A model generated the notes under the pieces. The model was not told the origin of the DNA. It did no database searches and saw only the letters and a program-made list of their open reading frames with translations. Positions 1 to 55,093 of a stretch of DNA of 64,000 bases are shown one piece after another (the first letter of the stretch is position 1; each line of letters starts with the position of its first letter). A program made the position numbers and the translations under genes. Source of the DNA: Paludibacteraceae bacterium (GTDB lineage: Bacteria > Bacteroidota > Bacteroidia > Bacteroidales > Paludibacteraceae); contig JAGBVI010000005.1 of the NCBI GenBank assembly GCA_017630395.1, positions 79,952 through 143,951 on the forward strand, written 5' to 3'.

Positions 1-1
1 A

Positions 2-3000
2 AAACCGATTCCGGAAGTAACAATTTCGGGTAACGAAAAGATATGTCCTAAAACTGCGACCAATTTAACTGCAGTAAACACAAATAAGGATGCAATCATC
101 TCTAAATGGCAATGGCACAAAGTAAACGAAGACAATACACTCACAGAGTTATCTGAGACAAAGAGTTTTATCAACACAGGAGATTTAAATGAAAATACTA
201 CATACATTGCAACAGCAACATCAAACTCCAATTGTGTTGGAAGGGACACTGCAACGATTCAACTTCATGACACCGTTGTCGTAGCTATTGAAGGAGTAAA
301 TTATATATGTGAAGGAGGAACAATAAATCTGAAGGCAAATACAACACCATCAGGAGAAAATTATATATACAATTGGTCACCTCAAGGCGCAAAACAAGTT
401 CAAACCGGAGATATACCATTATTGGAAACAACCACATTTAATTTAAGTATTACTGATGATAACAACTGTATCAGCAACGCAAAACCAAAGGTTGTTGAAT
501 TAGTACCACTACCAAGAATTTCTATTTCTCAAAATCCAACCGGACAAATTTGTGCAGGTAACAATATTGTAACCCTAACGGCATCCTCTTCTAACAAAGA
601 TGCAGCAGCAATGAAAAGCTACAATTGGTTTAGAATTAACGATGCAATTATCAATGATGATAACAATGTTGCCATTGAAACTGACGACATAACATTCAAC
701 GATTTAACTTCAACAACTACAATAAAAGCAATAGGTGTTGACACATTCGGATGTCAATCTGAGAAAGAGATACATGTAATTGAGATACAAGATGCACCTG
801 ACTTGACTATAACCGGAGTTACAAAAGCTTGTAAAGGTGATATAGTTCAATTAACAGCATCATCAAGTAAAAGTGAACCTATAAAATGGGAAAACGGAGA
901 AGAAGCAAATGGTCCGCGCCAAATTACACTCGATGAAGTTGGAACAATCTCATTCAAGGCCGAAATCACCGTAAATGGATGTACAACTATCAAAGAACAT
1001 GAAATTGAAGTGTTTGATGTTCCAAGTGTAGAAATTACAAGTATTAATGAAAAAAATTATGTATGTGAGGGCAATTCATTAGATTTGAAAGCCAACACAT
1101 CTTCAACAGATATTTCAACCATTAAATGGAATATTTCATCCTCAGAGACATACGAAGCGAGAATCACTCCAACAAGTAGCCCTACAACTTGTAGCGTAAC
1201 CATTACCAACAAGGCAGGATGTAGCGCAACCCATTCGTTTGATATAGAGATAAAATCAAATCCAATAATCTACATCAACGATGAAACAAATGGAGAAGAA
1301 GCGGTTTGTAAGGGAGAAATATTTAATTTAACGGCTAGTGGAAATGACAATTCTAATTACACTTGGTATCGAAGTGAAATGAAGGACGGAAATGAAATTG
1401 AAGGAGCAAACGGAGAGGTATATTCACCAACCATTAACAGCACAGAAAAATATGTGGTAAAAGGAGAAAATACATTTGGTTGTTTAGGCTCTGCGGTATT
1501 CACCGTAAAAGCTAAAGAATATCCGACATTCACTGCCAATGATACTACATCTTGTAAGGGAATGCCATCAACGGTAAAAGTAAAAACAGGAAATGCAGAC
1601 TACTATACTTGGACATGGCATAACAATGGTAAACAAGAGAGTATAAATGGAACTTCATATTCTGAAATTTTAACAGCCACAAGAACTTATCAATTAACAG
1701 GAACTAAAGAGGGATGTACAACTACACCTATAACTGTAACCGCAAATGTAAATGAATTACCAATCCTAACAATCAATTCAAAACAAAACATTGGAGAAAC
1801 ACCTATCACAATGTGTTTCAATGATATAGACACATTGATTGTAAGTGGTGCAAATGACTATACATGGTCGAACAACAGCGGTTTGACACAAAACAACGAG
1901 CGCAGCAATGAAGCAGAAATTATGCCTACATCTGTAGGAGAACATATCTATAGTGTGACCGGAACCGACTTAAACAATTGTACAAACACACAAGATATTG
2001 TTGTAAAAGTAAATCCTCTTCCAATTGTTAAAATTAGCGCTACTCCACTAATATGTGAGGGCGAGGAGACAGACCTCAAAGCAGAAGGAGCATTGTCATA
2101 CGAATGGAGCTGGATGGAAAATAGCAACAACCAAAGTGCGACAACTCAAGAGGTAAAAATCCCATTAAATACAACTACCATATTTAAAGTAACCGGAACA
2201 GATGGAAACAATTGTAAAAGTTTGCCTGTACAACAGGTTATAACGATAAAAGAGTCACCGTCATTAAGTTGGAATCCAGATACTCTCAATATCTGTGATG
2301 GTGAAAATGCAACACTCACAATCAATGGGGCAACATCCATAGAATGGGAAGATGGCGAAAAAACCGGTTCTACAAGAACATTCTACAATTTGAATGCAAC
2401 AGATGCTGTCAATGGAATTATTAAATACAAATTTACAGCCATGAATAATGGCTGTACCAAAGATTCTTCTATTGCAATTAGAGTAAATACACTTCCAGAA
2501 ATTTCGTTTGAAACAACAAGCGGAAGAGATAAAAATGGAGTAAGAATTGTCTGTGTAAACGAAGAATTCGAACTAAAAGCTGTTGCCGAAAATTCAAGTT
2601 TTATTTGGAACACAACAGAAAACAGTGAAACAATCACTAAAAAACACCAAAATACAGGTAGCGTAAATTACATTGTTACAGCAACAAACAAAACAACACA
2701 ATGTAGTAACAAAAACACCTATACCGTAAATGTGGTAGAAAATCCTATTATTAAAATCAATGATGAAATTGCAGGAGAGAGCGCCGTTTGTGAAAATAGT
2801 GAAATAACACTAGAGGCAAGCGGACTTAATAATGGTAACTACATTTGGTATGACGAGACTGATAACACTCAGAAAGAGATTGCCAACTCAACAGAGGAAT
2901 ACACAACAACAATTACAACAAACAAAAAATATCGAGTTGAGGGTAAAGATGAAAACGAGTGTCCTGGTAGCGCAACGTTCAATATAACAACGAAAGGAAA

Positions 3001-6000
3001 TCCAACATTTAAGTTCAACCACTCCCCTATTTGTGTGGGTGAAAATGCGGTTATTAGCTTGACAGAACGTTCTGAGAATACCCGTTTTGCATGGTCATGG
3101 GAAAATGGTTTAGGTTCATTAGAAAATGCTACGTCAGTAAATCACAAATTAGAGTCGGATAGAAAATATATTGTTACTGCAATAAAGGACAACTGTATCA
3201 AGACAGACTCTACTATAGTGACGGTTAATCCATTGCCAGAGTTTGAAATAGTTGAAGATACAGCTATTTGCTATAATGAACCGATTGAGTTAAGCGTAAA
3301 AAGCGACAACAATAATCAATATTCTTTCGAATGGACAGATAATAGTGGAAAAAATATTGGATCAGAATATAAAATAACTGAAAATTTAAATGCTTCAGCT
3401 ATCTACAAAGTAAATGTAAAGAATACGATAACTCAATGTTCAAAATCCAAGAATATTAATATAAAGGTACATCCATTACCACTATTACAAATAAAACAAG
3501 ACAATGCTGCATGTATTGGAAATATTGTAGAGTTGTCAGCAAGTGGAGCAGATGAAAGCTACAAGTGGTTAAATAAAGACAAAGAAGAAGTTTCAGAAAC
3601 TAACAGTACCATCTTCATTCCAATTACAGAAAAAAGCGCAGAAGATACAATCGTATACGTAATAGGTAAAAATATCACCGGATGTATAGATACAATTAGA
3701 CATCAACTCACAAAATTAGAAAAACCGGTAATAACAATTAGCGGAATCAATGATCGTTGCGAGGGAGATGGAGAGAAAACAATCGTATTATCCGGTGCAA
3801 GTAGATATGTATGGACATCAGAAAATAATCATGTAGGAAATACATTCACAGAAGCACTTACATCCGATAAAGAATATACTGTAAAAATCGAATCCGGGGC
3901 ATGTAAAGCAGATACTTCATTTACTGTAAAAGTAAATGAACTTCCAGATGTGTACATCACAGCAAAAGGCGGAATCAACAAAATTGATACAACCATCTGT
4001 TTGAATGATGAAATTCAATTAGTTGCACACGCTGCTAATAGTGAATATGTATGGAATACACAAGAAACGAGCGAAACAATTCCGGCAAAAGCCAATTCAC
4101 TCATCTCTATGAAATACAATGTAGTGGCGACAGACAAAGTAACTAAATGTTCAAACAAGGCAGAATATACTGTTAAAGTGAATCCACTACCTAACGTTCA
4201 AATAGAGAGTAAAGAGCTCGCATATTGTAAGGACTTGAAGATTGATTTAAAAGCAAACAACAACTATACCAGCTATAAGTGGAGTGTTGCAGGAACAAAC
4301 ATTAGTAGTGCAAATGCTATCGAGTATGAACTAAAAGAGAACACTAAATTCCGATTGGATGTGGTGGACGAGAATAATTGTCACAATCACGATACAATCG
4401 AAATTATCGCTAAGGAGTACCCAATTATAGCCATCAATGCACCTGCGGTTTGTTATGACAAATATCCAACATTAACGGTAAAGAAACCCGAAAGTACAGC
4501 CGACTATTACGTATGGTCTGATGGTACAAGCAATAATTCATCTTGGACAGCATCTACTCCAATAAAAGAGAACACAACTTATAAGATTACAGCTTACAAA
4601 GATGGATGCTTACAAGAGAAAAATATTAGTGTCAACATACATACACTTCCTCAAATATCATTCAAAATAAATGATATAGAAAGTAATGGAAACTATATGG
4701 TATGTGCAAACGACAATGAATTAAAAATTGAGGCTGTCGTAAATCAAAATAATGCATCCGATATTAAATATGTATGGGCACAAGGAACTACTACACCAAT
4801 CATCAATGTCACACCAACAGAAAAGACTAATTATACAGTTACAGTTACAGATGGCAATGGTTGTGTTAATAATGCTACGCAAAATATCATCGTAAACGAA
4901 CCTAGTATCGTGACTATTGATGGTATTAAAGAGATATGTCAGGGAGGAGAGTTTACATTAACAGCAAACGGAGCCGAAAGCTATACTTGGAACGTTACAC
5001 CGGATGATAATAGTAAATATTCCATCGAAGATAACAAATTAACCTACAAGAATATCCAAGATACTATTCGTTTCAGTGTGGTTGGAATAGATAACAATAA
5101 TTGTACTTGCAAAGAGGCAATTCACATTGTGAATATGATACCACAACCTGTAATAACAATTATTCCTAACGCAGCTAATCGAGAAGTATGTAAAGGAAGT
5201 AATTTAAATCTGACTGCAACAGCAGGAGCTAATGTTGCTATACAATGGGAAAATGCTGAAGTTGGGTACTTAGACTATATCTTTAACGATGACACCGCCG
5301 GAGAGAAAGAGGTAAAAGTTTATGCAACAACAACACAAGGATGTAAGAATGATTCTACAATAAAAATCAAAGTAAATGAACTTCCTGCATTTACAGTAGA
5401 AGGAAATGACTTCTGTATTGGAACAACCACAGAGCTAAAAGCAAGTGGAACAGATATAAATTTCTCATGGGTTGGATTTACTAAAAATATCAATCCTGTA
5501 AATGCAAGTAAAAGCGGGACCTATAAAGTAACTGGCGTTGATCTTAACGGATGTTCAAGAATAGATTCGATAACAGTTACAGCTTATAACAATCCAGAAT
5601 TTATCATCACTCAAGAGGGATTGACTTGGAATGATGACAATACAGCTTGTAAAGACTCTTCTATAACTCTATTAGCGAATGGAGGAAACTATACTTACGA
5701 TTGGTATATAAAAGAAGGAACTACATTGACTGACTTCCAAAAAGAGACTCCAACAATCACTCCAAAAGTGACATCAGACATCGTATTTACCGCAATAGCA
5801 ACTTTAAAACACAAAGAAAATTTACAATGTCAAAGTCAAAAAGATTATGCTGTAAAGATAAAAGAAGCTCCTAAGTTTGAATTAGCTGCAGCTACCGTAT
5901 GTGCCGGAAACTTATCTCGTATAGAGGTAAAAAATGGAGTTGCCGGAACAACCTATAATTGGAGTTGGGACAATGGAACTCAATCCGGTGGAACATATTA

Positions 6001-9000
6001 TGAAGAAAAACTTACTGCAGACAGAGAATATACTGTAATTGGTACAAAAGATCACTGCTCATACACTGTTGTCGCAACTGCACAAGTATATGCATTGCCA
6101 ACTATGAATAATATTCTAACAGATCCGGCTAATAAAGACGAAATTTGCTTAAACGAGAAGATTTCTCTAATTGGAAATGCAAATTCTGAAAATGAGCCAA
6201 TAGACTATAGTTGGAAAGCTAATAAAGATTTGAATAGCATAACAAACAAAACAAATGAGATTACAGAAATAGCACCAACACTGATTGGAGAAAGAACTTA
6301 TACATTAACTGCAACTGATGAAAAGGGTTGTAGCAATACCATCTCCAAAAATATCATCGTCAATCCTCTTCCTATCGTTAATGTAATCGGAGAAACAGAA
6401 ATCTGTAAAGGAGACTTCACAGATCTAAGTGTAGAAGGTGATTATCAAACAATTTGGTACGAATACGATAAAGAAAACAAAAACATTGGAACTCAATTAT
6501 TTGATAGCAAAACAAATACAGATAGCAACTTTAAATATCTGATTGAAGAAGCTAAGAGTTTCTATGTTGAAATTATCGATGAAAATGATTGCAAGAATGG
6601 AAAGGTGGTTGATATAACATTAAAAACTATTCCTAACATTCAATTTGTAGGTGAAACCTCTATCTGTGAAGGAGGAAGCACAACAATTTCCATTTTAGGA
6701 AACTCCGGAGGTAAAAATTATTTCTTTGATAAAACAACTGGAAAATATGAAACTACTTCCGTAACATCAAAGGTTTTGGCTCCTACTGCCACAACAACTT
6801 ATAATGTTAAACTCATAACTTCCAACAATTGTGAAATCGACACAACTATAACTATCACAGTTAATAAACTTCCTATAATAACCATCAATGGAGAAAAAGA
6901 TGGTAATTCAACAATCTGTTTGGGAAGCAGTATCGAATTAACCGGAGAAGCAGAATCCGATTGCAACTTCACATGGAACAATAGACAAACAAATGCTACG
7001 ATTGAGGTTATGCCATTAACCAACGCACAATACTATGTGGTTGGTACCGACAAAACAACCGGATGTAGAGATACAGCAAAACACACTCTAAACATCGTTC
7101 CGTTGCCTATTATAAACATCTCCGGAAATTCTGTAGTATGTCGCGATAGTGTCGTAAATCTAAAAATCACCAACGCAATTGCTGGCTTTGAATACGATTG
7201 GGGTAATGGAAACATGGGGGTAAATTATTCTCCAGTAATTACCAAAGATAGTGTAATACGTGTTACCGCAACTGATAATACAGAACAACATTGTAAAGCT
7301 ACAGAGACATACAAAGTTAGCATCAAAGAAAATCCAATAATTACACTCAACAGCGAAAATCCTTTTGTTTGTAAAGGTGACTTTGTGAACATCAATGTAA
7401 CATCAAATTTACCTTCAAGCACCTACCTATGGGAAGGAACTGCACATGAAAATAAAACTAGCTCTTTAAAAGAGAAAGTTGATGCAAAAAAAGAGTACAA
7501 AATTCACGTAACCAAAGATGGCTGTACAGCAAGCAAAGACATTAATGTCACTGTTTGGGAACTTCCTACCGTTACTGCTGAATTAACCAATGATAAACGT
7601 GGCGATACTATCTGTATTAATACTGCAGCCGAATTAACTGCAACAGCAGAAAATGGTACAGCTCCATATTCATTCAATTGGATTAGCAACGTTATAAACG
7701 GAAATAATACCAATGCTACAATTCAAACCAATAATCTAACCAATACAAATACTCCATACTCATTGGTAGTGGAAGTGTCTGATAAAAACAATTGTAAAGG
7801 ATTAGATACAATAGAGGTAAAAGTAAAAGCAAATCCTATCATCAGAATCTCAGGAGACAAGTTTGTTTGCGAAGCAATGAACGGAACGTTAACTGCTGTT
7901 GGTGCCGGAGAAGATGGAACTTATCTATGGAGTACTGACGAAACTACAGAAATTATCACTCCAACTATTACATCAGACTCTGCATTCACAGTAAATGGTA
8001 CTGATATGTATGGATGTACTGGAACATCAAATCCGTTCAAAGTTGCTAAAAAGAATTTACCAAAATTAACAATCTATGGTGCTACTACCATTTGCGAAGG
8101 ATCATCTACAAAAATTTCACTCTCAGGAGCTGGCGCAAATGATGAAAATTATGTATGGTATGAAGGTGAAAATAGAATCATGAGTTCTAACAGAACCCTC
8201 TCTCCTACCCAAACCACAACATATTATGTAAGTGGAACACTTAATGGATGTACTTCAGATACATCATTCACAATTACTGTAAATAAAGTTCCTGAAATCA
8301 ATATCAACGGAGTTAATAATGGTAAAGCTGAGATTTGTTTAAATAATGATATTACACTAACTACAAACGTTTCTGATTCTGAGACTTACTCCTATTTATG
8401 GAATAACAACTCAACAGAAAAGAGTATTAACGTAAATCCAACAACAACCACTAAATATAGTGTACAAGTGTGGAATAGCAATACTCAATGTTCTAAAAAA
8501 GATACTTTTGAAGTAATTGTTAATCCTCTTCCGCTATTTAAGTTAGAGGCAGAAGAGGCTGTGTGTATGAATAGCACTTCAGTGGTTACCTTAATCAATA
8601 CGGATGGTGCTCCAAAAGCAGATAAATATGATTGGACTAAAGATAATGAGCAATTAACCGTAACAAACAATAGTTATTCAGAGGTATTAAACTCTGAAGT
8701 TAGTTACTCTGTAACCGCAAAAATCAATTCAACACAATGTAGCTACACACAATCTATTTCTGTTGGTGTCAAGGAAAATCCTACAATAAAAATCGAGGCC
8801 GACAACAGCATTTGTTATGGTGAAAATGTAAAAATTGAAGCAGAAGGCGTTGTAGCAGCAAACTATCTATGGCCGGATGGAAGAGAAATTCCGATGACAA
8901 CTTGGATAGAAGAAGAGATAAAAGAGGTTGGTACATACAAATACAAGGTTAAGGCAATTAAAAATTATCCTTTATCGAATAGTAAAACATTGAATTGTAC

Positions 9001-12000
9001 TGCTGAAGACTCTATAGATATAACTATCAATCCATTACCAAATATTGAAATTGTAGGACCAGCAATCGTATGTAAGGAAGAACCTATAACACTTACCACT
9101 AAAGAGAATAGTAATCCTATTCAAGAGATAAAAAAATACGAATGGAGCACTGGTTCCGAAGAAGAATCTATTGTGGTAACTCCAACTAGAGATATAACTC
9201 CATACACGTTGAAAGTAAGCAACAAATATGATTGTATAGCTAATGTTACTTATCAATTAAATGCGTTTGACAAACCGACATTCAATTTTGGAGGAGATAC
9301 TGCTTATTGTGTAGGTACTAAAGGTTCGATTTCCGTAATAGGCAACAATATTCAATCAATTACATGGAGTGCCATTGAACAGGGAAGCGGAAACGATGTT
9401 GCTATCACAGAAAATAAAACTACAAATAGTGCTACATTTACAGTAGATACAGCGTTAACTGTAAAAGCAGTAGTTGTTAGCAATGACGAATGTTCTTCCG
9501 AAAGAACTATCGATATAAATACAAAAAGCTATCCTAAGATCAATGCTACATATAATAAAAATGTATGTAAAGGTGGTAGTGTAGAAATTAAAGTTAACGG
9601 TGCTGATACATGGAAATGGCTCAATTCGGAGAAAAAATCAAATGTGTTTACGGATGTAAATATCACAGAGGACAAAGAATACACAGTAGAAGGGACAACA
9701 GAAGGCTGTACTTCTTACGAAACATTCAAAATAACAGTGCTTAATTTACCGAATGTTAAAATAAATGATGGAAAAGATACTGCTATTTGTGAGGGAGAAT
9801 CTATTGTTCTAAGAGCTACAGGCGCAAAATCATTTGAATGGTTGGATATGTATAACGAAACCGATAGTGAGATTACAAAGGAACCGAAAGAGATAACCAT
9901 GTATGCTGTTAAAGGAATAGATGACAATAATTGTGTAAATAGTGACACTATCATCGTCAACGTGAACAAACTTCCTAATATTGAACTTGAATATATCAAT
10001 AGTGTTTGTGATGGTTCTAATGTTGTTATCACAGCTCTAAATAACGATATTAAATATCAATGGAGTGCTCAATCCGATTATGAAGAGAATAGCAGTCACA
10101 CCATCGAAAACATAATAAATGATATTACCGGTGAAGTGTTTGGTATGGATAAAAATAATTGTGTAAACAAAGCTCCATACGAGATAAAGAGAAAACCTAA
10201 CCCTCAATTGACATTAACAGGTGAAGATGTTTGTTATAATAATAAAGCAACTATTGAGGTTGTAGATAATTCCGAAAATACCAGATACCAAACAACGTAT
10301 GTTTGGGAAGGAAACGATAGTAAAATAGGAATAAACTATGAGAGTGAAGAACTTCTCAAAGATAAGATATTTAAAGTCGTCGCAACCAAAAATGGATGTA
10401 TTACAGAAGATTCTATTGAGATAAAAGTTAGAGATTTGCCAAATATACTAATTAATGATGGAGATGAATTTGCATACGTTTGTAAGGGAGACTCAGTAAA
10501 ATTGTTAGCATCCGGAAGCGATATCAATAGCTATATTTGGGATAATAAAAATAGCGAAAATAGAAACAACTATACAGTAAGACCTATCAATGATGAAACG
10601 GTATATTCATTAGAAGGTAAAGATAATTTTGGTTGTACTAATAGAGATAATATTACCGTTATTGTGACTCCTACTCCATCATTTGAAATTATTGGAGAAA
10701 ATATGGTATGTATCAATGATGAAGTAACATTGGTTGGCTCTGACAAAAATTTGGAATATAGCTGGAAAAACAAAAATGGTGATGAAATCAGTTCTTTAGC
10801 AAGTGCTACAATAACAATTACACAAGATACAACCTTAATCATAACCGGAACAGCTAAAAATGATAATGGAACAATCTGTTCAAGTACAATTGAATACGTA
10901 ATTAGAAAGAAGGATCGACCTACAATCAATGCTAATTATAACAATGCAATTTGCTATGGAAGTAGTGCTATAATTAACGTATTTGGAAGTTCAGACAACT
11001 ATGAATGGTACAAGAATGGAGAGTTAATTTCTACTAAAAATAGCTATGAACAAGTTATTACTGAACCACAGAAATATCTTGTTAAAGGTTACATGAATGG
11101 TTGTGATGACAGTATATCAATTGACATTGCAGTAAAAGAAATTCCTACAATTGAAATAACAGGTGCAAATGAAATCTGTTTCAACGACTCTGTAATTCTT
11201 AATGCTACTGCCGGATTAAATTCATACCAATGGAAAAATTTAACTACTTCAAGTACCTTACCAAGTACATCTGATGTAATTAAAATTGCTCCAAAAGTAG
11301 ATTCCAAAATTGAGGTAATTGTATCTAATACAGAGGGCTGCGAAAATAGAGATTCCTTTGACGTAATCGTTAATCCTTTGCCTTCATTTACAATTAGTGC
11401 AAATGAAAATAGCGTATGCGAAAATAGTGAAGTAGAACTTACAACCTCTAATGACAAGTTGACCTACAAATGGCAAAATGAAACGGAATTTAGTTCAAAT
11501 CTAAACAAGATTTTTGCAATGGGCAGCTTCCCAATGACAGATACATTCAGAGTAACTGCCATGAGTGAAAAAGGTTGTATCAAGTCTGACTCAATTCGTA
11601 TTACAACAAAGGCAAGACCACAATTAAACATCGTATATACAGATTCTATTTGCTTTGGCAAACAAGCAACAATGACCGGACATAACAATACTGCAAAATA
11701 TAAGTGGTATGATGTAACGAATGGAATAGAAAATTTGTTATCAGAATCTAGTAGTTATACAACAGACATTTTAACTGAAAATCACCTATTTAAAAGCATT
11801 GCAACTTCCAATGGGTGTGAATCTGACACTACATTTGAAGTAGCAATCAGAGAATTGCCAAAAGTTAAAATCGAAAATAGTCCGATAATTACAATATGTA
11901 ACAATACGAGCCTAACAATTAATGCTGAAAGTGAAACAGCTAAAGAATATAAATGGGACAATAATTCATACAGTAACAATAACTATTATGAAGTATTTCC

Positions 12001-15000
12001 TATAAAAGATACTACACTATATCGCTTAATTGTTAAAGACATGTTTGGTTGTGAAAACTTTGATTCTGTATATGTTGTCATCCAAGAGAATCCAATATTT
12101 GAGATTATTGGAAAAACAGACACTTGTCAAGGTGATGATATTGAATTAAAGGCTTCTAACGAATCATTAAGCTATGTTTGGAAAAACAATTCAAACGAAA
12201 CATTGACAGAAGATATAGAGTTCACTATAAGAGTAACACAAGATACAATACTTAAAATTTCAGGATACACTAATGATAATTTGAAATGTGAAACTACCAT
12301 TGAACACATTGTAAAAGTTAATCCTTATCCTGTAATTACGGTTGTTAAAGATACAGACAATGTATGTTATGGAACACAAGCCTATATAGAGGTTAAGAGT
12401 GACGTAGATGCTACTTATAGTTGGAATAGTGGCGAAACAGATCGTTACATTCAAAAAGTAATTACGGAAGAAAGTAAATTCACTGTAAAAGCAACTAGCA
12501 TAAAAGGAGGTTGTATTAGCGATACATCTTTCGTAGTGAACAAATGGGATTTACCAATTATCAATGCAGAAAATGTAGCAATCTGCTATGGCGACACTGC
12601 TGTCCTTGAGGCCCAAAGTGAAAGTAACAACGTTGTGTTCAGATGGCAAGATGCTTCTGTAGATGGGGCTAAGTATGTAACCCCTACTCTAACCTCTCAA
12701 ACACAATATAAGGTTTTGGGTACCGATGAAAATTCTTGCGTAGGAGAAAAGAGTGTTATTGTATCTATTAATCCACTCCCTCAATTCCAATTGAGTACTA
12801 TAACTCCTGTTTGTAGAGGTACAGAAACTACTATTACAGCAGATAATGAGGAATTAAAATATCTATGGGGAGGAGACAACTACACTGACAATAACTCATA
12901 TACCATAGCAATTGCTAACGATACGACATTCAACGTATGGGGAGAAGATAATAATCAATGTAAGAGCATGAAGAGCATTAAGGTGGGTGTTAAAGAATAC
13001 CCAGTTCTTCAATTAAGAATCGATAACGACACCGTATGTTATGGAGGTTCTAAAACATTGTATGTCTCAGGAGCGAACAACGGATATAAATGGATTGATG
13101 GTTCTACAAAAAATTTCATAACCATTGACAACATAACAGAAGAGATTACAGTATCCGTAGAAGGTACAACCAATGGATGTACTAGCAAAATTGATACAAC
13201 CATTAAGGTTTGGGAGCTTCCTAACATAGAGATTGAAGCATCTGAAAATACAATATGTTACAACGATAATGTTCAATTAATAGGAAAGAATGGAGTATCA
13301 GGAAAATACAGATGGAGTCACAACGGTGTAACTGCTGATGAAGTAATTGTGGTACCTAATAAGGTGGGTGAAAACAATTATTCTGTAACCGGATATGATA
13401 TTCATGGTTGTAAAAATGTAGGAGAAATTACAATCAATGTTAATGCACTTCCTATCGTAAATATCGAAGGAGATGCTTACGTATGTCGCGATGAAAACGC
13501 ATCATTGGAAGCAAAATCAGAAACTGATGCAACTTTCCAATGGATAAATGGTAACGACATTTTAATGGATGGAGCTACTTTCAATCCTACAATCAGTAGC
13601 GACGATACAACATTTACAGTGTTGGCAACAGACAACAATAATTGTCAATCTACAGCCGAATTCAATGTTTATGTAAAAGAGTTCCCTGTATTATCATACA
13701 GAACAAATACTGGCAAAGATACGGTTTGTATTGGTTCTCCTGTTGTAATTTACATGAGCGGTGCTGATGAGTACGTTTGGGCAAGCGACAACTCAACAGA
13801 AAATTCTTACTCCGAAACTATTAATGGGGAAAAGACATTTATCGTATCTGGAACAACTAATGGATGTACAAGCGACACTGCAATTACTATTGCGACATGG
13901 CAATTGCCTGAATTTGGTATCGATGGAGACTCAACTATATGTTTGAATGATACTGCTCTATTATTCACTTATCCTAAAAATAATGAGGAGTTAACGTTTA
14001 AATGGAAACACAATGGAAGTTCAAACGATACTACATACGAGACTCCGACTATAACTAAAACATTCTATGCTACAGCAACAGATATCAATAATTGTAAGTC
14101 GCAAAAAGAATTTGAAGTTAAAGTTAATGCGCTTCCTACTGATATTAAGATTGATGGCGCAAGAGCGGTTTGTTTAGATTCTACCGTTACTCTTACCGTA
14201 TCAGGATCAGCCCTTCATTACGAATGGAGAAATGGAATAGAGGGAACAAGCATAGAAGCTCCTATTTCTTCAAAAGATTCAACATTCTATGTAATAGGAA
14301 CTAATGAAAATGGATGTAAATATGAAACATCTTACACAGTTACATCAATAGACCATCCTACTTTAATTCCAAATGCTCCGGATTCTGTTTGTTATGGTTC
14401 TAAGATCAACATCTCTATCAAAGGTGCTGCCGAATATCTATGGGATGACAATAGTACAAAGAATTATCGTAGTGTAGAAATTACTAAAGATACGTTATTC
14501 GTTGTAAAAGGTACTTCCAATGGTTGTACATCAACAGACACAATAAAAATTGGTAAACAAGATCTTCCAAACATCCTAATTGCATCGGAAAACACCTTAG
14601 GAATGATTTGTCGCAACGACTCTCTGAAATTAATGGCTATCGGTGGAGAAACTTATACTTGGAATACCAAAGAAGAGAGCGATGTTATCCTTGTCAAACC
14701 TCTTGGTTCTACACAATATATCGTTAGAGGTGTAGGTGCAAATGGATGCCAAAACAGTGATACATTTAATCTCACTGTTAATCCATTACCGATTGTAAAC
14801 ATCATCGGCGAAAAGAATATCTGTGAAGGAGATAAAGTTGAATTGAAAGCTGAAAGTAGCAATGAATTTACAATCACTAACTATCTGTGGGGTAACGGAA
14901 AAACAGATCAAACTGTAGAAGAAGAAATATTGGATACTACTTACTTCAAAGTAACATTAACAGATATTAATGGTTGTAAGAATAGTGATTCGATATTAAT

Positions 15001-18000
15001 TCAATCAAAACCTTACCCTATTGTAACAATCGATGCACCTGAATATGTATGTTTCGGCCAATCTGCAATCATTTCAGCAGAGGGTGCAAACAATTATGTT
15101 TGGGGAACTAAAGAGAGCGGAAAAATTGATAGAAGTTTTGCAGACACTCCTAAAAATGATACTACATACACGGTTTATGGAACTACAAACGGTTGTACTA
15201 CAAAAGCTACAGAAACAGTAATCGTTAGATCTCTTCCAAATGTAACAATTACCACTTCTGATAGCACTTTTGCAATTTGCTTACAAGATTCTATCAAATT
15301 GACAGCAAATGGTGCAGAAACATATTCATGGAATACAGGTATAATCAGCGAATCAATCGTTGTTACTCCAATGAGCAATACCGATTATAAAGTAACCGGT
15401 ACGGATGAATTTGGTTGTCAAAATACAGGTACATACACAATACAAATTAATAAATTACCGGAATTTGAAATTAAAGGTAACGACCTAATTTGTGAAGGTG
15501 ATGTGGATACTGTATGGGTAGAAAGTGAGCATGAATTAACGTATGTATGGAATTATCTAAATTCTACTTCCGATACCATCTATCCGGTAATCGACCAAAA
15601 CACAACTTTTGAAGTAACTGCAACCAATAACAATGGTTGTACAACAAATAAAAGTTACACTGTAAGAAGTAAACCTTATCCTGTATTGGAATTCAATCAT
15701 CAAGAGGCTATCTGCCGCGGAGAGAAAGCTGTAATTGTGGTGTCAGGTGCAATTGATTATGAATGGCAAGATGGTACAACCGGTAACTCATTTATCGATG
15801 AGCCTCAAAACAGTACCACTTACACCGTAACCGGAACAACACGCGGATGCACAACAACAGCAAGTACTAACGTTAAGGTGTGGTCTCTCCCTAATGTAAC
15901 AATTACTGGAAACCAAAAAGATATTTGTACAAATGATCCTATTACATTATCAGCTTCAGGTGCAAGCTCTTACTTATGGAATACCGGAGATACTCAAAAT
16001 TCAATTACTATTATTCCAAATGGAACTACTGCGTTTAGTGTAACAGGACGAGATATAAATGGTTGCGAATCTACTGATACATTCTTGGTTACAGTTCATC
16101 CTCTTCCAATTATCTCTATTGATGGTCCAGATGCTGTTTGTGCAGATAGCATCACTACCCTTACGGCAAACGGTGGTTTAACTTATTTGTGGAATACAAA
16201 TGAAAATACTCAATCCATCACCCCTAAAGTTACTAACACAAGAACTTATGTTGTAATTGGTTATGATGAGTATAATTGTAAATCAACTGCTTCTAAAACA
16301 ATTCGTAAGAAAGAGTATCCTGTAATAACTCATACGGCTCCAACTAGTGTATGCTATGGTACAATGGCTAATATTAGTGTAATAGGTGCTTCTCAATACA
16401 TTTGGCAGGATGGTTCAACCGGTAACACATACTCCGATTCCCCAGAAGAGAATACAACTTACACTGTGATTGGTATTACCGAAAATTGTAGTACAACAGT
16501 TGATATACCTGTTAATGTACTTGCATTACCGGATGTTAATATCTCTGGTACTAATGAAATTTGTATCAATAAACAGGTAACACTTGTCGCTCATGGTGCA
16601 AAAAGCTATGCATGGAGTACTGGTCTGCAATCTGATAAGTTAACCATGACTCCTATGAGTACTGGAACTTACATTGTAACCGGTACTGATGAAAACAATT
16701 GTAAAGATACAGCTAGCTACACTGTCAAAGTGAATCCTCTCCCTAATATTTCAATTAAGGGTGAAAATTATGCTTGCTACGAAAGTTTAATTACTTTGAC
16801 TGCCGTTGGTAATGAAGGATGTACTTACAATTGGAGCAATAATACTACCGGGGAAACATTATCTGAAGTTATCAAGGAATCTACTACCTATATTGTAACT
16901 GCTAAAGATACCAACGGATGTATGGCTGTTGCTACTCATAATGTAACAAAAGTTGATTACCCTGAGTTAACTTATCAAGCTCCGGATACAATATGCTACG
17001 GAGAGTTCGTTTCCATTACTGCAAGCGGGGCTAATGAGTATTTATGGTCAAATAATTCTACAACAAACCAAATCTCAGATCAACCTCAAGCTTCAACTAT
17101 CTACAAAGTTGTTGGAACCACAAATGGCTGTTCCGATTCAATAAATATCCCAATAGAGGTTCTTGCTTTGCCGAATGTTACATTCCAAGGTGATACAATT
17201 GTTTGTGAAGGTAATAAATTGGTTTTGGAAGCTAAAGGGGCTAAAACATACCAATGGAATACCGGTATTAGTAATAATATTTTGGAAGCTTTCCCTACCA
17301 AAAGTACTAAGTATATCTTAACTGGTACAGCTGAAAACGGATGCTCAAACTCAATAGAAATCCAAGTTAGAGTTAATCCGAAACCTCAATTTGAAATATT
17401 GGGTGACGAAGAGGTATGCGAAAACTCTCCTATTAGCTTGACTGCTTCCGGTGATGGAGAAACATACTATTGGAGTACTGGTAGTGCGAGCTACGATAAA
17501 TTTGTTACAAATAATAATGTTGCACTAAATATTCCAATTAATCAACCTACATTCGTATTTGTCAAAGGTATTGACGAACATGGATGCGAAAATGTTGCAC
17601 AGAAATCTATCAAAACAATAAATCCTCCTGAACTTAGCTATCGCGGTAATGTTGAAGTTTGTGAAGGAGAAAAGATAGAGTTGACCGGAGAGGGGGCTAA
17701 AAATTATCGTTGGAAATTAGGCAATAAATATTCTACTGATAATCCGTTTGTCTTCGAACCTAATATTACAGATAAAGTAACTCTTATCGGTACTCTCGGA
17801 AAGTGTTCTTCAGAGTTAGAAATCGAAACAAGAATTAAGCCATCTCCTAAAGTAATAATTTCCGGAGATTCTGCTACTTGTAGAAATGACTTTGTAACAC
17901 TTACTGCTGATGGTGCTGTTCGATACATATGGTCAACAGGAGAACAAACAAAGAGTATCACTAAAAAGATTGCTAATACAAACAGCTACACTGTAACCGG

Positions 18001-18841
18001 ATATAGCTCTAATGGCTGCTCTAATAGTGTCTCTAAAATCGTGAAAGCAAGAGATATTCCTAAAATTTCCGCTGATTATAGCAGAAAGGGCTGTCCTGAA
18101 ACGGGTACTATTGTTAGCTTGATTGCTAAAGGTGCGAACTCTTTGGTTTGGGAAAGTAATCCTGACAACAATGATATAGATGATGTTCCTGTTACTCCTT
18201 CTGATGTTACGGATGTTACTATTTTTGAAACAACAAGATTTGTCGTTACAGGAACGGATGATTTTGGTTGCGTTAATACTGATACATTAACTGTTGAACC
18301 GCTTACTTTTGAACAAATGGAGTACGATATCACACCTCGTATAATTGATTCAGACAATCGTGTTGTTGGTTTCTTAGGTATTAAACCAATAACCCAAAAT
18401 TGGACATGGATTACGGGTGACGAAATAGAGCCTATAAGAGGAAAAGATGTAAACTTTACCTACACAGCTGTTACTCAAGACTCATTTGAAGTGAAAATTA
18501 TTGCAGTTGATGATAGTGGTTGTGAATACAAAGATACTGCATTCATCTATGTTTGGAAAGATTTTTGGGCTCCGAGTGCATTTACACCAAATGAAGATAA
18601 TTTGAATGATCAATTCAGATTTAAGGGTACTGAATATATGACCGAATTTGAATTTAGAATCTTTGACCGTCTTGGTACAGTGGTATTCGAAGGATACAGT
18701 AAAGATGATGCTTGGGATGGTACATTCAAAGGTGAGCCTTGTCCTTGGGGAGTTTACGGATATGTGGTAAAATATCGTAGTAACTACAAAGGTCTCGAAA
18801 AAGAAGGAGAACGTAGAGGTGAAATTACTTTGATACGATAG
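2..18841 (+). CDS. Giant T9SS-secreted repeat adhesin (SprB-like), 5'-truncated by window edge
   Basis: The reading frame is open from base 2 to the TAG at 18839-18841, at least 6279 residues; the true start lies left of the window. The first ATG/TTG-type codon visible (TTG at 422) is internal, because the same domain pattern continues upstream of it. About 78 tandem domains of 70-85 aa share one pattern: an early Cys (IC.G/ND), then LTA.GA..Y.W, then TTY.VTGTD.NGC, then a linker ending PLP or YP. This is an Ig/PKD-like beta-sandwich pattern with two Cys per domain, probably a disulfide. The last ~90 aa (from about 18560, FWAPSAFTPN, then FRIFDRLG, WDGTFKGEPC and YGYVVKY) match the gliding-motility-associated C-terminal / T9SS type B sorting domain. 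Role inferred: exported cell-surface adhesin, comparable in size and layout to Flavobacterium SprB. Substrate is unknown. Confidence 0.9.
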   Translation, partial: KPIPEVTISGNEKICPKTATNLTAVNTNKDAIISKWQWHKVNEDNTLTELSETKSFINTGDLNENTTYIATATSNSNCVGRDTATIQLHDTVVVAIEGVNYICEGGTINLKANTTPSGENYIYNWSPQGAKQVQTGDIPLLETTTFNLSITDDNNCISNAKPKVVELVPLPRISISQNPTGQICAGNNIVTLTASSSNKDAAAMKSYNWFRINDAIINDDNNVAIETDDITFNDLTSTTTIKAIGVDTFGCQSEKEIHVIEIQDAPDLTITGVTKACKGDIVQLTASSSKSEPIKWENGEEANGPRQITLDEVGTISFKAEITVNGCTTIKEHEIEVFDVPSVEITSINEKNYVCEGNSLDLKANTSSTDISTIKWNISSSETYEARITPTSSPTTCSVTITNKAGCSATHSFDIEIKSNPIIYINDETNGEEAVCKGEIFNLTASGNDNSNYTWYRSEMKDGNEIEGANGEVYSPTINSTEKYVVKGENTFGCLGSAVFTVKAKEYPTFTANDTTSCKGMPSTVKVKTGNADYYTWTWHNNGKQESINGTSYSEILTATRTYQLTGTKEGCTTTPITVTANVNELPILTINSKQNIGETPITMCFNDIDTLIVSGANDYTWSNNSGLTQNNERSNEAEIMPTSVGEHIYSVTGTDLNNCTNTQDIVVKVNPLPIVKISATPLICEGEETDLKAEGALSYEWSWMENSNNQSATTQEVKIPLNTTTIFKVTGTDGNNCKSLPVQQVITIKESPSLSWNPDTLNICDGENATLTINGATSIEWEDGEKTGSTRTFYNLNATDAVNGIIKYKFTAMNNGCTKDSSIAIRVNTLPEISFETTSGRDKNGVRIVCVNEEFELKAVAENSSFIWNTTENSETITKKHQNTGSVNYIVTATNKTTQCSNKNTYTVNVVENPIIKINDEIAGESAVCENSEITLEASGLNNGNYIWYDETDNTQKEIANSTEEYTTTITTNKKYRVEGKDENECPGSATFNITTKGNPTFKFNHSPICVGENAVISLTERSENTRFAWSWENGLGSLENATSVNHKLESDRKYIVTAIKDNCIKTDSTIVTVNPLPEFEIVEDTAICYNEPIELSVKSDNNNQYSFEWTDNSGKNIGSEYKITENLNASAIYKVNVKNTITQCSKSKNINIKVHPLPLLQIKQDNAACIGNIVELSASGADESYKWLNKDKEEVSETNSTIFIPITEKSAEDTIVYVIGKNITGCIDTIRHQLTKLEKPVITISGINDRCEGDGEKTIVLSGASRYVWTSENNHVGNTFTEALTSDKEYTVKIESGACKADTSFTVKVNELPDVYITAKGGINKIDTTICLNDEIQLVAHAANSEYVWNTQETSETIPAKANSLISMKYNVVATDKVTKCSNKAEYTVKVNPLPNVQIESKELAYCKDLKIDLKANNNYTSYKWSVAGTNISSANAIEYELKENTKFRLDVVDENNCHNHDTIEIIAKEYPIIAINAPAVCYDKYPTLTVKKPESTADYYVWSDGTSNNSSWTASTPIKENTTYKITAYKDGCLQEKNISVNIHTLPQISFKINDIESNGNYMVCANDNELKIEAVVNQNNASDIKYVWAQGTTTPIINVTPTEKTNYTVTVTDGNGCVNNATQNIIVNEPSIVTIDGIKEICQGGEFTLTANGAESYTWNVTPDDNSKYSIEDNKLTYKNIQDTIRFSVVGIDNNNCTCKEAIHIVNMIPQPVITIIPNAANREVCKGSNLNLTATAGANVAIQWENAEVGYLDYIFNDDTAGEKEVKVYATTTQGCKNDSTIKIKVNELPAFTVEGNDFCIGTTTELKASGTDINFSWVGFTKNINPVNASKSGTYKVTGVDLNGCSRIDSITVTAYNNPEFIITQEGLTWNDDNTACKDSSITLLANGGNYTYDWYIKEGTTLTDFQKETPTITPKVTSDIVFTAIATLKHKENLQCQSQKDYAVKIKEAPKFELAAATVCAGNLSRIEVKNGVAGTTYNWSWDNGTQSGGTYYEEKLTADREYTVIGTKDHCSYTVVATAQVYALPTMNNILTDPANKDEICLNEKISLIGNANSENEPIDYSWKANKDLNSITNKTNEITEIAPTLIGERTYTLTATDEKGCSNTISKNIIVNPLPIVNVIGETEICKGDFTDLSVEGDYQTIWYEYDKENKNIGTQLFDSKTNTDSNFKYLIEEAKSFYVEIIDENDCKNGKVVDITLKTIPNIQFVGETSICEGGSTTISILGNSGGKNYFFDKTTGKYETTSVTSKVLAPTATTTYNVKLITSNNCEIDTTITITVNKLPIITINGEKDGNSTICLGSSIELTGEAESDCNFTWNNRQTNATIEVMPLTNAQYYVVGTDKTTGCRDTAKHTLNIVPLPIINISGNSVVCRDSVVNLKITNAIAGFEYDWGNGNMGVNYSPVITKDSVIRVTATDNTEQHCKATETYKVSIKENPIITLNSENPFVCKGDFVNINVTSNLPSSTYLWEGTAHENKTSSLKEKVDAKKEYKIHVTKDGCTASKDINVTVWELPTVTAELTNDKRGDTICINTAAELTATAENGTAPYSFNWISNVINGNNTNATIQTNNLTNTNTPYSLVVEVSDKNNCKGLDTIEVKVKANPIIRISGDKFVCEAMNGTLTAVGAGEDGTYLWSTDETTEIITPTITSDSAFTVNGTDMYGCTGTSNPFKVAKKNLPKLTIYGATTICEGSSTKISLSGAGANDENYVWYEGENRIMSSNRTLSPTQTTTYYVSGTLNGCTSDTSFTITVNKVPEININGVNNGKAEICLNNDITLTTNVSDSETYSYLWNNNSTEKSINVNPTTTTKYSVQVWNSNTQCSKKDTFEVIVNPLPLFKLEAEEAVCMNSTSVVTLINTDGAPKADKYDWTKDNEQLTVTNNSYSEVLNSEVSYSVTAKINSTQCSYTQSISVGVKENPTIKIEADNSICYGENVKIEAEGVVAANYLWPDGREIPMTTWIEEEIKEVGTYKYKVKAIKNYPLSNSKTLNCTAEDSIDITINPLPNIEIVGPAIVCKEEPITLTTKENSNPIQEIKKYEWSTGSEEESIVVTPTRDITPYTLKVSNKYDCIANVTYQLNAFDKPTFNFGGDTAYCVGTKGSISVIGNNIQSITWSAIEQGSGNDVAITENKTTNSATFTVDTALTVKAVVVSNDECSSERTIDINTKSYPKINATYNKNVCKGGSVEIKVNGADTWKWLNSEKKSNVFTDVNITEDKEYTVEGTTEGCTSYETFKITVLNLPNVKINDGKDTAICEGESIVLRATGAKSFEWLDMYNETDSEITKEPKEITMYAVKGIDDNNCVNSDTIIVNVNKLPNIELEYINSVCDGSNVVITALNNDIKYQWSAQSDYEENSSHTIENIINDITGEVFGMDKNNCVNKAPYEIKRKPNPQLTLTGEDVCYNNKATIEVVDNSENTRYQTTYVWEGNDSKIGINYESEELLKDKIFKVVATKNGCITEDSIEIKVRDLPNILINDGDEFAYVCKGDSVKLLASGSDINSYIWDNKNSENRNNYTVRPINDETVYSLEGKDNFGCTNRDNITVIVTPTPSFEIIGENMVCINDEVTLVGSDKNLEYSWKNKNGDEISSLASATITITQDTTLIITGTAKNDNGTICSSTIEYVIRKKDRPTINANYNNAICYGSSAIINVFGSSDNYEWYKNGELISTKNSYEQVITEPQKYLVKGYMNGCDDSISIDIAVKEIPTIEITGANEICFNDSVILNATAGLNSYQWKNLTTSSTLPSTSDVIKIAPKVDSKIEVIVSNTEGCENRDSFDVIVNPLPSFTISANENSVCENSEVELTTSNDKLTYKWQNETEFSSNLNKIFAMGSFPMTDTFRVTAMSEKGCIKSDSIRITTKARPQLNIVYTDSICFGKQATMTGHNNTAKYKWYDVTNGIENLLSESSSYTTDILTENHLFKSIATSNGCESDTTFEVAIRELPKVKIENSPIITICNNTSLTINAESETAKEYKWDNNSYSNNNYYEVFPIKDTTLYRLIVKDMFGCENFDSVYVVIQENPIFEIIGKTDTCQGDDIELKASNESLSYVWKNNSNETLTEDIEFTIRVTQDTILKISGYTNDNLKCETTIEHIVKVNPYPVITVVKDTDNVCYGTQAYIEVKSDVDATYSWNSGETDRYIQKVITEESKFTVKATSIKGGCISDTSFVVNKWDLPIINAENVAICYGDTAVLEAQSESNNVVFRWQDASVDGAKYVTPTLTSQTQYKVLGTDENSCVGEKSVIVSINPLPQFQLSTITPVCRGTETTITADNEELKYLWGGDNYTDNNSYTIAIANDTTFNVWGEDNNQCKSMKSIKVGVKEYPVLQLRIDNDTVCYGGSKTLYVSGANNGYKWIDGSTKNFITIDNITEEITVSVEGTTNGCTSKIDTTIKVWELPNIEIEASENTICYNDNVQLIGKNGVSGKYRWSHNGVTADEVIVVPNKVGENNYSVTGYDIHGCKNVGEITINVNALPIVNIEGDAYVCRDENASLEAKSETDATFQWINGNDILMDGATFNPTISSDDTTFTVLATDNNNCQSTAEFNVYVKEFPVLSYRTNTGKDTVCIGSPVVIYMSGADEYVWASDNSTENSYSETINGEKTFIVSGTTNGCTSDTAITIATWQLPEFGIDGDSTICLNDTALLFTYPKNNEELTFKWKHNGSSNDTTYETPTITKTFYATATDINNCKSQKEFEVKVNALPTDIKIDGARAVCLDSTVTLTVSGSALHYEWRNGIEGTSIEAPISSKDSTFYVIGTNENGCKYETSYTVTSIDHPTLIPNAPDSVCYGSKINISIKGAAEYLWDDNSTKNYRSVEITKDTLFVVKGTSNGCTSTDTIKIGKQDLPNILIASENTLGMICRNDSLKLMAIGGETYTWNTKEESDVILVKPLGSTQYIVRGVGANGCQNSDTFNLTVNPLPIVNIIGEKNICEGDKVELKAESSNEFTITNYLWGNGKTDQTVEEEILDTTYFKVTLTDINGCKNSDSILIQSKPYPIVTIDAPEYVCFGQSAIISAEGANNYVWGTKESGKIDRSFADTPKNDTTYTVYGTTNGCTTKATETVIVRSLPNVTITTSDSTFAICLQDSIKLTANGAETYSWNTGIISESIVVTPMSNTDYKVTGTDEFGCQNTGTYTIQINKLPEFEIKGNDLICEGDVDTVWVESEHELTYVWNYLNSTSDTIYPVIDQNTTFEVTATNNNGCTTNKSYTVRSKPYPVLEFNHQEAICRGEKAVIVVSGAIDYEWQDGTTGNSFIDEPQNSTTYTVTGTTRGCTTTASTNVKVWSLPNVTITGNQKDICTNDPITLSASGASSYLWNTGDTQNSITIIPNGTTAFSVTGRDINGCESTDTFLVTVHPLPIISIDGPDAVCADSITTLTANGGLTYLWNTNENTQSITPKVTNTRTYVVIGYDEYNCKSTASKTIRKKEYPVITHTAPTSVCYGTMANISVIGASQYIWQDGSTGNTYSDSPEENTTYTVIGITENCSTTVDIPVNVLALPDVNISGTNEICINKQVTLVAHGAKSYAWSTGLQSDKLTMTPMSTGTYIVTGTDENNCKDTASYTVKVNPLPNISIKGENYACYESLITLTAVGNEGCTYNWSNNTTGETLSEVIKESTTYIVTAKDTNGCMAVATHNVTKVDYPELTYQAPDTICYGEFVSITASGANEYLWSNNSTTNQISDQPQASTIYKVVGTTNGCSDSINIPIEVLALPNVTFQGDTIVCEGNKLVLEAKGAKTYQWNTGISNNILEAFPTKSTKYILTGTAENGCSNSIEIQVRVNPKPQFEILGDEEVCENSPISLTASGDGETYYWSTGSASYDKFVTNNNVALNIPINQPTFVFVKGIDEHGCENVAQKSIKTINPPELSYRGNVEVCEGEKIELTGEGAKNYRWKLGNKYSTDNPFVFEPNITDKVTLIGTLGKCSSELEIETRIKPSPKVIISGDSATCRNDFVTLTADGAVRYIWSTGEQTKSITKKIANTNSYTVTGYSSNGCSNSVSKIVKARDIPKISADYSRKGCPETGTIVSLIAKGANSLVWESNPDNNDIDDVPVTPSDVTDVTIFETTRFVVTGTDDFGCVNTDTLTVEPLTFEQMEYDITPRIIDSDNRVVGFLGIKPITQNWTWITGDEIEPIRGKDVNFTYTAVTQDSFEVKIIAVDDSGCEYKDTAFIYVWKDFWAPSAFTPNEDNLNDQFRFKGTEYMTEFEFRIFDRLGTVVFEGYSKDDAWDGTFKGEPCPWGVYGYVVKYRSNYKGLEKEGERRGEITLIR
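1530..18200 (+). repeat. Three-domain (A-B-C) higher-order tandem repeat, 24 copies
   Basis: Within the giant gene the Ig-like domains are not equivalent. Every third one (type A) starts after YP or a similar linker, has VCYG/ICxG at its first Cys and ends TTNGCT. Type B has ICxND and SYxWNTG; type C has VCEGD and ends near K-YP. The first Cys codon of the A domains lies near 1553, 2293, 3032, 3758, 4451, 5189, 5900, 6664, 7370, 8093, 8813, 9565, 10231, 10952, 11651, 12365, 13037, 13727, 14390, 15050, 15712, 16352, 16994 and 17660. Spacing is 640-765 bp throughout. The six domains before 1530 fit the family but their phase is less clear. Copies are similar as protein but diverged as DNA. Confidence 0.8.
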
Positions 18842-54800: not shown

Positions 54801-54945
54801 TTTGCTCGCCTTGAGCCAATCCCTCACCCTTAAAATAGGCAAAGAGATAAGCAGAAAAATCCTGCTGTTGACCCATTAATACTATTGGTACTGAAAATAA
54901 AATTAAAGCAAAAAATAGGTGGCTACGTAATATAAATGTCTTCAT
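51838..54945 (-). CDS. GH43-GH30 fusion glycosidase with T9SS C-terminal domain
   Basis: The 1035-aa protein has a signal peptide (1-25). Residues about 28-345 form a GH43-like five-bladed propeller (RDPF at 80-83, WAPE at 147-150). Residues about 355-800 form a GH30 barrel (GWGVSLCWWANMCG at 367-380; acid/base Glu530 in DPFNEP; nucleophile Glu633 in WMSETG). The GWG.SLCWWA start resembles endo-beta-1,6-galactanase-type GH30 more than glucuronoxylanase GH30. Residues 850-945 look like a ricin-type beta-trefoil (LWKGDATGANAHREWRI). The last ~70 aa are a T9SS type A CTD (LSSGIYVIKYEL, then KVLVK). Exact specificity is inference. Confidence 0.85.
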   Translation of the reverse strand: MKTFILRSHLFFALILFSVPIVLMGQQQDFSAYLFAYFKGEGLAQGEQIYFAISRDGLNWTDLNEGKPVLTSSLGEKGVRDPFIMRSADGSKFFVIATDLKIYGNNDWTAAQTTGSQSVMIWESSDLVNWSEQRMCHVAPRGAGCTWAPEAFYDEENEEYILFWSSKIPGNQSVSNNDNTHRVYYCTTKDFRSFSDTKVWIELRNSSNQAISVIDATAIKVGDTYYRFKKNEATHAHKQGFPTSGKYIIMEKSSSLLGNWSEIRSDMSQIAYVEGPTCFKFNGEDKWCLFLDDFGGKGYYPLVTTDLNSGQFTQLSSDQYSLPSVMRHGSVVSITEQEYMNLLAKYAPSKVSSARINPATPQQNLEGWGVSLCWWANMCGKWSDDKIDKLVHLLVDKDKLNYNIFRYNIGGGDHPSHYNGHMCNGKGKRAEMEGFLPSEGAAYNWSADEGQRKIMLKIKELRPDAVFEAFSNSPPYWMTYSGCSAGNTDAGKDNLRPEYYSQFCDYLINVCKHYKEVYGIEFKTLDPFNEPNTNYWGANGGQEGCHFDPESQVNLLRVLYPKLKASGLNTVISACDETSVTTAIGELQLYKSEGDIVPMLGQFNVHTYGGSVMDKANLKDLVHELKLPLWMSETGAGGTGIAGNLAMAQRMFDDLNYLIPQAWIDWQFVEEGNDQWCLVKGNFSAQTYEIIKNFYIRMQVSRFIKQGYTFLMTGRNDLLAALSPEQDEVVLVMLNTTTDEKLFFIDLSLFTGLNNANASLYLTNRQENCSEATDFSIENGQLSYQMGGEEIATIVIPVEGSKGIDPFMDEMPYLIVPRSCPYPMSLSGNSLSLSSFCAMDTMQRWYFDKLEGGNYAIYTLRDGKKMAITDNGSYWPEMLELTGDINQQFAILSLGENCFKISSVSNDKLFDLEGVNTSIGTNVGLWKGDATGANAHREWRILSFPYSQSDYGEEEVDIPIVQMNDSLCFVSEFAKLSVIKFVEGLFAYEVYRVDGTLLMRGEDVADWIDIPLSSGIYVIKYELAGKVASQKVLVK

Positions 54946-54994
54946 AAACCGTTTATAATAATGATTTTAAAGATTCAACAATTTGAAAACCGCG

Positions 54995-55002
54995 TAAAAG
55001 TA
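54995..55002 (-). promoter_or_regulatory. Weak -7-like box before the GH30 gene
   Basis: TACTTTTA on the minus strand, 50 bp before the ATG, differs from TAnnTTTG at the last base. It closely resembles TACTTTTG before the GH43-GH43 gene, so both may respond to the same regulation. Confidence 0.3.
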
Positions 55003-55063
55003 TATATAAAAAAAATTAAAAACAAAAAAAAGAAAAACTAAAAAGTTGTCGTAGAAAAAAAAT

Positions 55064-55093
55064 AAGTGAGATACCATCACTGGCACCTCACTT
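55064..55093 (-). terminator. Terminator of the GH43-GH43 gene
   Basis: AAGTGAG (55064-55070) pairs with CTCACTT (55087-55093). An inner CCA/TGG helix sits across a 3x3 internal loop, and on the minus strand a long T run follows. It separates this gene from the GH30 gene 119 bp further on, so the two are probably independent or only partly read through. Confidence 0.75.

Follow-up and report, generated by a model that had tools for sequence, protein, structure and literature searches.

Two giant genes with a three-domain period

We identified, in a stretch of 64,000 nucleotides from a Paludibacteraceae bacterium (GenBank assembly GCA_017630395.1, contig JAGBVI010000005.1, positions 79,952 to 143,951; hereafter the window), the 3' part of a giant gene, G2, whose product carries 90 immunoglobulin (Ig)-like domains arranged as 30 A-B-C triplets, and, directly upstream of G2, a second giant Ig_7 gene, G1, with the same count; both the number and the register of the domains are constant among the intact giants of the genus. 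The G2 frame is open from window position 2 to 18841, and the full gene (C37:75414-98792) encodes 7,792 amino acids (aa), of which 1,513 residues (about 4.5 kb) precede the window start; G1 (C37:51290-74917) encodes 7,875 aa. The two products are alike in architecture, each having a unique N-terminal region of about 540-600 aa, a long Ig_7-like array, a degenerate domain and nearly the same C-terminus. As the domains of G2 match a single Pfam family, Ig_7 (PF19081), A, B and C are subtypes of it. A previous inspection of the letters and reading frames of the window (the sequence-only reading) had described 24 triplets at 1530..18200; these are present, but the array is longer, with 26 triplets in the window (Table 1).

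The window part of G2 was cut into domains by its cysteine pairs, with six extra cysteines excluded by eye, which gave 78 domains. Pairs of domains three apart scored 71.6 on average and pairs six apart 76.0, as against 41.5-47.2 at lags 1, 2, 4, 5, 7 and 8. In the whole 90-domain arrays, the period-3 excess reached z 22.2 for G2 and z 16.0 for G1 against 1,000 shuffles of domain order. The slight advantage of lag 6 over lag 3 is a weak, short-range six-domain signal; a period of six was rejected for both genes, as a triplet-level period of two did not reach significance along the array (p 0.35 for G1 and 0.17 for G2), and no higher triplet-level period rose above the shuffles (z -2.0 to 0.85).

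Hidden Markov models (HMMs) of the three classes, trained with the tested position left out of both paralogues, assigned the expected class to 77 of the 90 domains of G2 and 72 of those of G1, where about 30 are expected by chance, and on a tree of all 180 domains the class label switches 34 times, compared with a mean of 68.2 and a minimum of 58 in 100 index shuffles. Profile scoring and domain clustering thus both recover the recurring classes of the sequence-only reading. However, 31/180 domains were not placed in their expected class, so that the phase is constant along the array while individual domains are not always recognisable as A, B or C, and the word "strict", used of the arrangement before, does not hold domain by domain. 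The short motifs that had been offered as class tags did not serve: exact tags, which are rare in the 24 triplets, were rejected as markers. TTNGCT occurs in 3/24 A domains, ICxND and WNTG in 6/24 and 3/24 B domains, and VCEGD in none of the 24 C domains; VCYG/ICxG does mark 13/24 A domains, but also 3/24 of B and 5/24 of C. The class-specific signal is instead spread over the domain: in 17/72 columns it exceeds the highest value of a sampled null. The top two of these columns sit at inter-domain joints, and the clearest differences fall at such joints and close to the second cysteine; for example, class C has K near the domain end in 53%, and D precedes the NGC turn in 57% of B and 53% of C, where class A has T (21%) or K (14%).

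Domain number and register are constant in the genus

We used the N-terminal region of G2 as query against 150 genomes of the family; 80 of them had matches, 13 being members of the same genus, including the source genome of the window. In 11 of these 13 genomes each of the two giants is an intact frame (7,792-8,449 aa), giving 22 giants for comparison. The remaining two genomes, G143 and G147, were left out. In G143 the giants are in pieces (C28 and C65; frames of 4,983, 640 and 279 aa), by gene decay or assembly breaks, and in G147, which is 88% complete, the longest frame among the matches listed is 3,959 aa. The twelve named relative loci are from Paludibacteraceae or Bacteroidales metagenome-assembled genomes; where a source is stated, it is goat omasum, water-buffalo rumen and reticulum, yak rumen or horse faeces.

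By profile count 22/22 giants carry 90 array domains, and all 22 show the period of three. The profile count depended on its rule: a first gap rule gave 63-64 domains for five giants and 91 for one giant of G074; a relaxed gap rule with merging of split matches gave 90 for 21 giants and 92 for the G074 giant, which was set to 90 by dropping two weak N-terminal matches. A count by cysteine pairs, which is independent within the array but takes its end points from the profile, also gave 90 in 22/22, with at least two cysteines in 1,979 of the 1,980 domains. Two genomes (G054 and G103) carry their giants on separate contigs, no closer than 5 kb to a contig end, and there too the count is 90 for each giant.

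Register was equally constant. In domain-level alignments to G2, 10 of the 21 other giants were unbroken and 11 had paired local gaps. Offset 0 was the best register in all 42 whole-array comparisons with G1 and G2, where the next-best register was +/-6 domains, not 3, in 40/42. Of 378 ten-domain blocks, 375 were best at offset 0 and three at +/-6. Same-index identity in these giants averages 30-37% between the G1 and G2 types, 34-92% for pairs of G2 orthologues and 33-93% for pairs of G1 orthologues. Class models built from the genome of the window, when applied to the 10 other genomes, put 1,559/1,800 domains in phase, with 179/180 in the near relative G120.

Other genera and shorter relatives

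Three giants of another genus, g4 (10,465-10,533 aa), have 120 domains each (3/3), with 73-77 of the 120 in phase for A/B/C where chance gives 40; here the first domain was set by eye, and three weak N-terminal matches and one match before the C-terminus were excluded in each. Such a frame of about 10,500 aa was found once in each of three of the four g4 genomes, with no second of similar length among the matches listed, and the fourth genome, G036, has none among the matches listed. In the giants of genera g5 and g6 (G063 and G005), parts cut by cysteines showed period 3 with z 10.5 over 69 domains and z 3.8 over 38, the latter being the C-terminal domains of a 56-domain chain; their N-terminal halves are too diverged for counting. 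Of three mid-size g4 Ig_7 proteins (3,138, 4,329 and 3,835 aa as fetched), one lacks period 3 (z -0.1), and those of 4,329 and 3,835 aa (G003_C39 and G036_C78, L085-L087) score best at lag 6, a hint of a six-domain unit in this genus.

The family search also returned many matches of about 1,300-1,700 aa. Eleven such short relatives, one lying about 13 kb upstream of G1 and ten in other genomes (1,528-1,711 or 1,495 aa), all have 12 full domains, and two of 1,278 aa have nine and one partial. In these 13 proteins the best lag is 3 in ten and 2 in three, so that the period is weak in this group. Accordingly, the three-domain period is not universal among Ig_7 relatives. Genes of the PorP/SprF family were seen beside two short relatives: L118 (C37, about 34.2-38.7 kb; 1,495 aa; 12 full Ig_7 domains and one partial) adjoins one at C37:33235-34173, and L121 (C60; 1,278 aa) has one nearby at 987-1919.

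Export signal, N-terminal region and homology to GhpA

The C-terminal domain of G2, scored on the window part of the protein, matches PF13585 with 59.3 bits (cut-off 27) and TIGR04131 with 55.6 bits (cut-off 35), both describing the type B sorting signal of the type IX secretion system (T9SS), and the same genome encodes T9SS machinery (SprA_N, 530 bits; eight PorP/SprF matches above cut-off). The N-termini of G1 and G2 look hydrophobic by eye. Judged from the type B signal and the machinery genes, the giants are probably secreted, and their export by T9SS, already proposed by the sequence-only reading, is supported. The N-terminal regions of two orthologues (L088 and L092) matched no Pfam family above cut-off. 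A predicted model of that of L088 is beta-rich, with a mean predicted local distance difference test (pLDDT) of 70; in a fold search its best matches were to the Epf adhesin domain (E 8.6e-6, query template modelling (TM) score 0.17), and CBM61 was matched with a target TM-score of 0.56 (E 2.7e-3). This weak likeness in the model, a lead only, would fit an adhesive tip.

The best match to the array in both sequence and fold is GhpA, the grappling hook protein A of Aureispira sp. CCB-QB1 (PDB 9flp, 9fls, 9flu, 9flv, 9flw, 9flx, 9fly and 9g8b). Along the 43 GhpA domains that were read the lag-3 correlation is 0.62, successive units scoring nearly equally. Class A is the best model in 9/14 phase-0 domains and class B in 12/15 phase-1 domains, in a scoring where the B profile is higher overall, uncorrected, and missing C scores were set to -3. 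Class C is not recognisable in GhpA, the phase-2 domains averaging 7.5 bits for A, 11.4 for B and 7.9 for C. The predicted geometry of a six-domain segment of G2 (domains 79-84) matches GhpA. Judged by these comparisons, we class G2 as a relative of GhpA that shares its architecture rather than as its orthologue. Taken with the genus giants and the 90- and 120-domain arrays, the GhpA period makes the earlier proposal that the duplicating unit was three domains well supported, and the match to GhpA lends indirect support to the suggestion that the triplet forms a repeating binding or packing unit.

A possible surface shaft

The explanation we favour, to which we give about an even chance, is that G1 and G2 form a T9SS-exported, surface-held shaft resembling that of GhpA, with the triplet as its building period. 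The giants would leave the cell by T9SS and stay at its surface, each as a single chain of N-terminal region, 90 cysteine-paired Ig_7 domains, degenerate domain and type B sorting domain, the paired cysteines presumably forming disulphides. Such a chain may act as a shaft, several copies lying side by side in a long fibre on the cell surface that is organised as in GhpA. The three-domain unit would then be the structural repeat of the shaft, each class forming its own joint to the following domain and probably touching neighbouring strands in its own way, and because of these class-specific joints and contacts phase and triplet number would stay fixed while the sequences diverge. The conserved count and order, together with the GhpA-like shaft, suggest a long surface fibre; scaled very roughly from a 49-domain DUF11 filament some 180 nm long (PMC13319060, available part), whose domains differ in size, a 90-domain chain might reach some 0.3 micrometre. 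With the N-terminal region at its tip, the fibre could serve adhesion or capture, plant fibre, mucus or other cells being possible targets in this habitat.

Several points weigh against this explanation. The third-phase domains of GhpA are unlike C, and the phase of GhpA slips near both ends. The predicted TM-score (pTM) of the six-domain model is only 0.56, leaving the inter-domain angles uncertain, and the N-terminal model is weak too, given its mean pLDDT and query-normalised TM-scores of about 0.2 for the best fold matches. The 12-domain short relatives also hold their number constant, so that constancy of number is not confined to long shafts. Our literature search found no expression or microscopy data on these Paludibacteraceae.

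Sequence age and alternative explanations

We compared four-fold sites, which are at or near the random level within and between the arrays: 0.366 observed versus 0.376 expected for same-class domains of G2, 0.399 versus 0.375 (G2) and 0.409 versus 0.380 (G1) at lag 3, and 0.396 versus 0.379 between G1 and G2 at the same index; the value for a close orthologue in G120 is 0.752. Therefore, the period is not the product of recent duplication or recent gene conversion; what explains it is constraint at the protein level on sites that descend from ancestral A, B and C domains. The earlier statement that domain identity was kept by selection thus holds as far as protein-level constraint goes, with class and position signals persisting where synonymous sites are random, but not as selection for period three itself, because descent from an ancient triplet also gives the period. 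Nor is the number 30 or the period proven to be selected, since recombination between diverged repeats may simply no longer be possible.

This last consideration leads to a plausible, though on balance doubtful, alternative, in which the giants are a historical relic: an ancient triplet was duplicated many times, diverged past recombination and so froze in number and phase, leaving a single-chain tether in which the triplet has no structural role. Within G2, amino-acid identity is 0.296 for the same class beyond lag 3 and 0.273 between classes, which with the synonymous saturation would leave little substrate for recombination; the constant 12 domains of the short relatives fit as well, and domain repeats often expand several domains at once (Bjorklund et al. 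2006, PMC1553488, available part). On the other hand, 90 in-register domains are kept in all 22 genus giants compared, down to 30% and up to 93% same-index identity, the 17 class-specific columns exceed their null, and the same period occurs in GhpA, a former of multi-strand shafts (PMC13319060, available part). The register test firms up the domain count, and it bears equally on the GhpA-like shaft and on the relic.

G1 and G2 are colinear. The mean domain score between them is 116.2 at the same index, 53.8 for the same class elsewhere and 42.3 for other classes, and the same-class maximum over 1,000 permutations of triplet order is 67.7; the best G2 match lies at the same index for 52/90 G1 domains and that index is among the best three for 68/90. 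This colinearity, the intact pair in 11/13 genus members and the equal counts in G054 and G103, where the genes are on different contigs, would be expected if G1 and G2 lay side by side in register within one fibre, hence 90 domains each. We consider such an arrangement unlikely, since descent from one 90-domain gene gives equal counts without contact, three of the four g4 genomes have only a single frame of about 10,500 aa among the matches listed, and changes in domain length do not co-vary significantly between G1 and G2 (r 0.07, 0.14 and 0.16; p 0.25, 0.09 and 0.06), so that lateral pairing inferred from co-varying lengths was rejected. Its boldest form, equally improbable, is a hetero-oligomeric, titin-like cable of exactly 30 triplets with class-specific lateral contacts, a secreted molecular ruler; if true, every domain would have a fixed address, and neither gene could gain or lose a domain alone. 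Finally, a period arising by chance or from segmentation or assembly error, for which the misassigned domains and the corrected counting rule might speak, is already refuted by the permutation z of 16-22, the cysteine-only count and the 11 separate genome assemblies.

Significance

Repeat numbers in bacterial adhesins are usually regarded as variable. Here two genes hold 90 domains, or 30 triplets, in 11/11 genomes with intact copies, long past synonymous saturation. Through the link to GhpA the triplet gains a concrete structural hypothesis, in which three domains may be the period from which T9SS surface shafts are built in distant Bacteroidota, including those of the gut. What is new here is the second giant, the unvarying 90:90 count and register, the test for saturation and the three-domain period in common with GhpA. 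A three-domain super-repeat in T9SS proteins was not found in our literature search of titles and abstract openings, which is no proof of its being unpublished.

Features of the window

The coordinates of the G2 features are listed in Table 1. The AT skew on the coding strand of G2 is strongly positive (0.13-0.27) in window positions 1-16000 and declines toward the 3' end of the gene. At window 51838-59424, on the reverse strand, two neighbouring large genes with polysaccharide-degradation domains were noted, one glycoside hydrolase family 30 (GH30)-like with a ricin-type lectin domain, the other with GH43 and carbohydrate-binding CBM6 domains.

Table 1. Positions of G2 features in the window
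Feature	Position	Strand	Remark
Domains 13-90 of the 90-domain Ig_7 array (26 A-B-C triplets)	2..18310	+	
Two extra in-phase triplets (domains 13-18) ahead of the start given by the sequence-only reading	2..1522	+	3/6 domains called as expected by leave-position-out models
24 triplets of the sequence-only reading (domains 19-90)	1523..18310	+	
Two triplets (domains 79-84, A-B-C-A-B-C), input of structure prediction	15680..16960	+	
Class A example domain	16319..16528	+	VCYG
Class B example domain	16529..16741	+	ends in VNPL
Class C example domain	16742..16960	+	
Degenerate partial domain preceding the C-terminal signal	18311..18571	+	boundary approximate
CHU_C / T9SS type B C-terminal sorting domain (PF13585, TIGR04131)	18572..18838	+	
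Stop codon of G2	18839..18841	+	

Comparison with known systems

GhpA is a T9SS substrate. Like G2, it is a long array of related Ig-like domains, with a three-domain period of about 249 residues in which A is followed by B in the same order. GhpA differs in its length (5,898 aa) and in having units of near-equal score, whereas those of G1 and G2 are diverged, and the genome studied here has two paralogous giants. GhpA is a heptamer with a hook. According to the available part of PMC13319060, it forms a multi-strand shaft. The same part of that source describes GhlA, a grappling hook-like protein of Litorilinea aerophila, which is likewise a giant chain of beta-sandwich domains and forms a polar filament; unlike G2, it has 49 DUF11 domains, is three-stranded (probably C3) and belongs to a member of the Chloroflexota, and no three-domain period is mentioned for it there.

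Closer in family are the Ig_7 / CHU_C surface proteins of Bacteroidota (PF19081 and PF13585), which have the same families as the domains and C-terminus of G2; those related proteins that were cut (n=13) hold 9-12 full domains, unlike the 90 of G2. A fixed higher-order domain period, as in G2, is also described for nebulin, with a unit of seven domains (PMC1553488, available part), and for the A-band super-repeats of titin, as far as the part of the literature available goes. Titin and nebulin are muscle proteins with other periods, and we claim no homology to them; the giants nevertheless show one feature of a titin-like ruler, in that domain number and order are fixed across species in 22/22 cases, which is a likeness and not homology.
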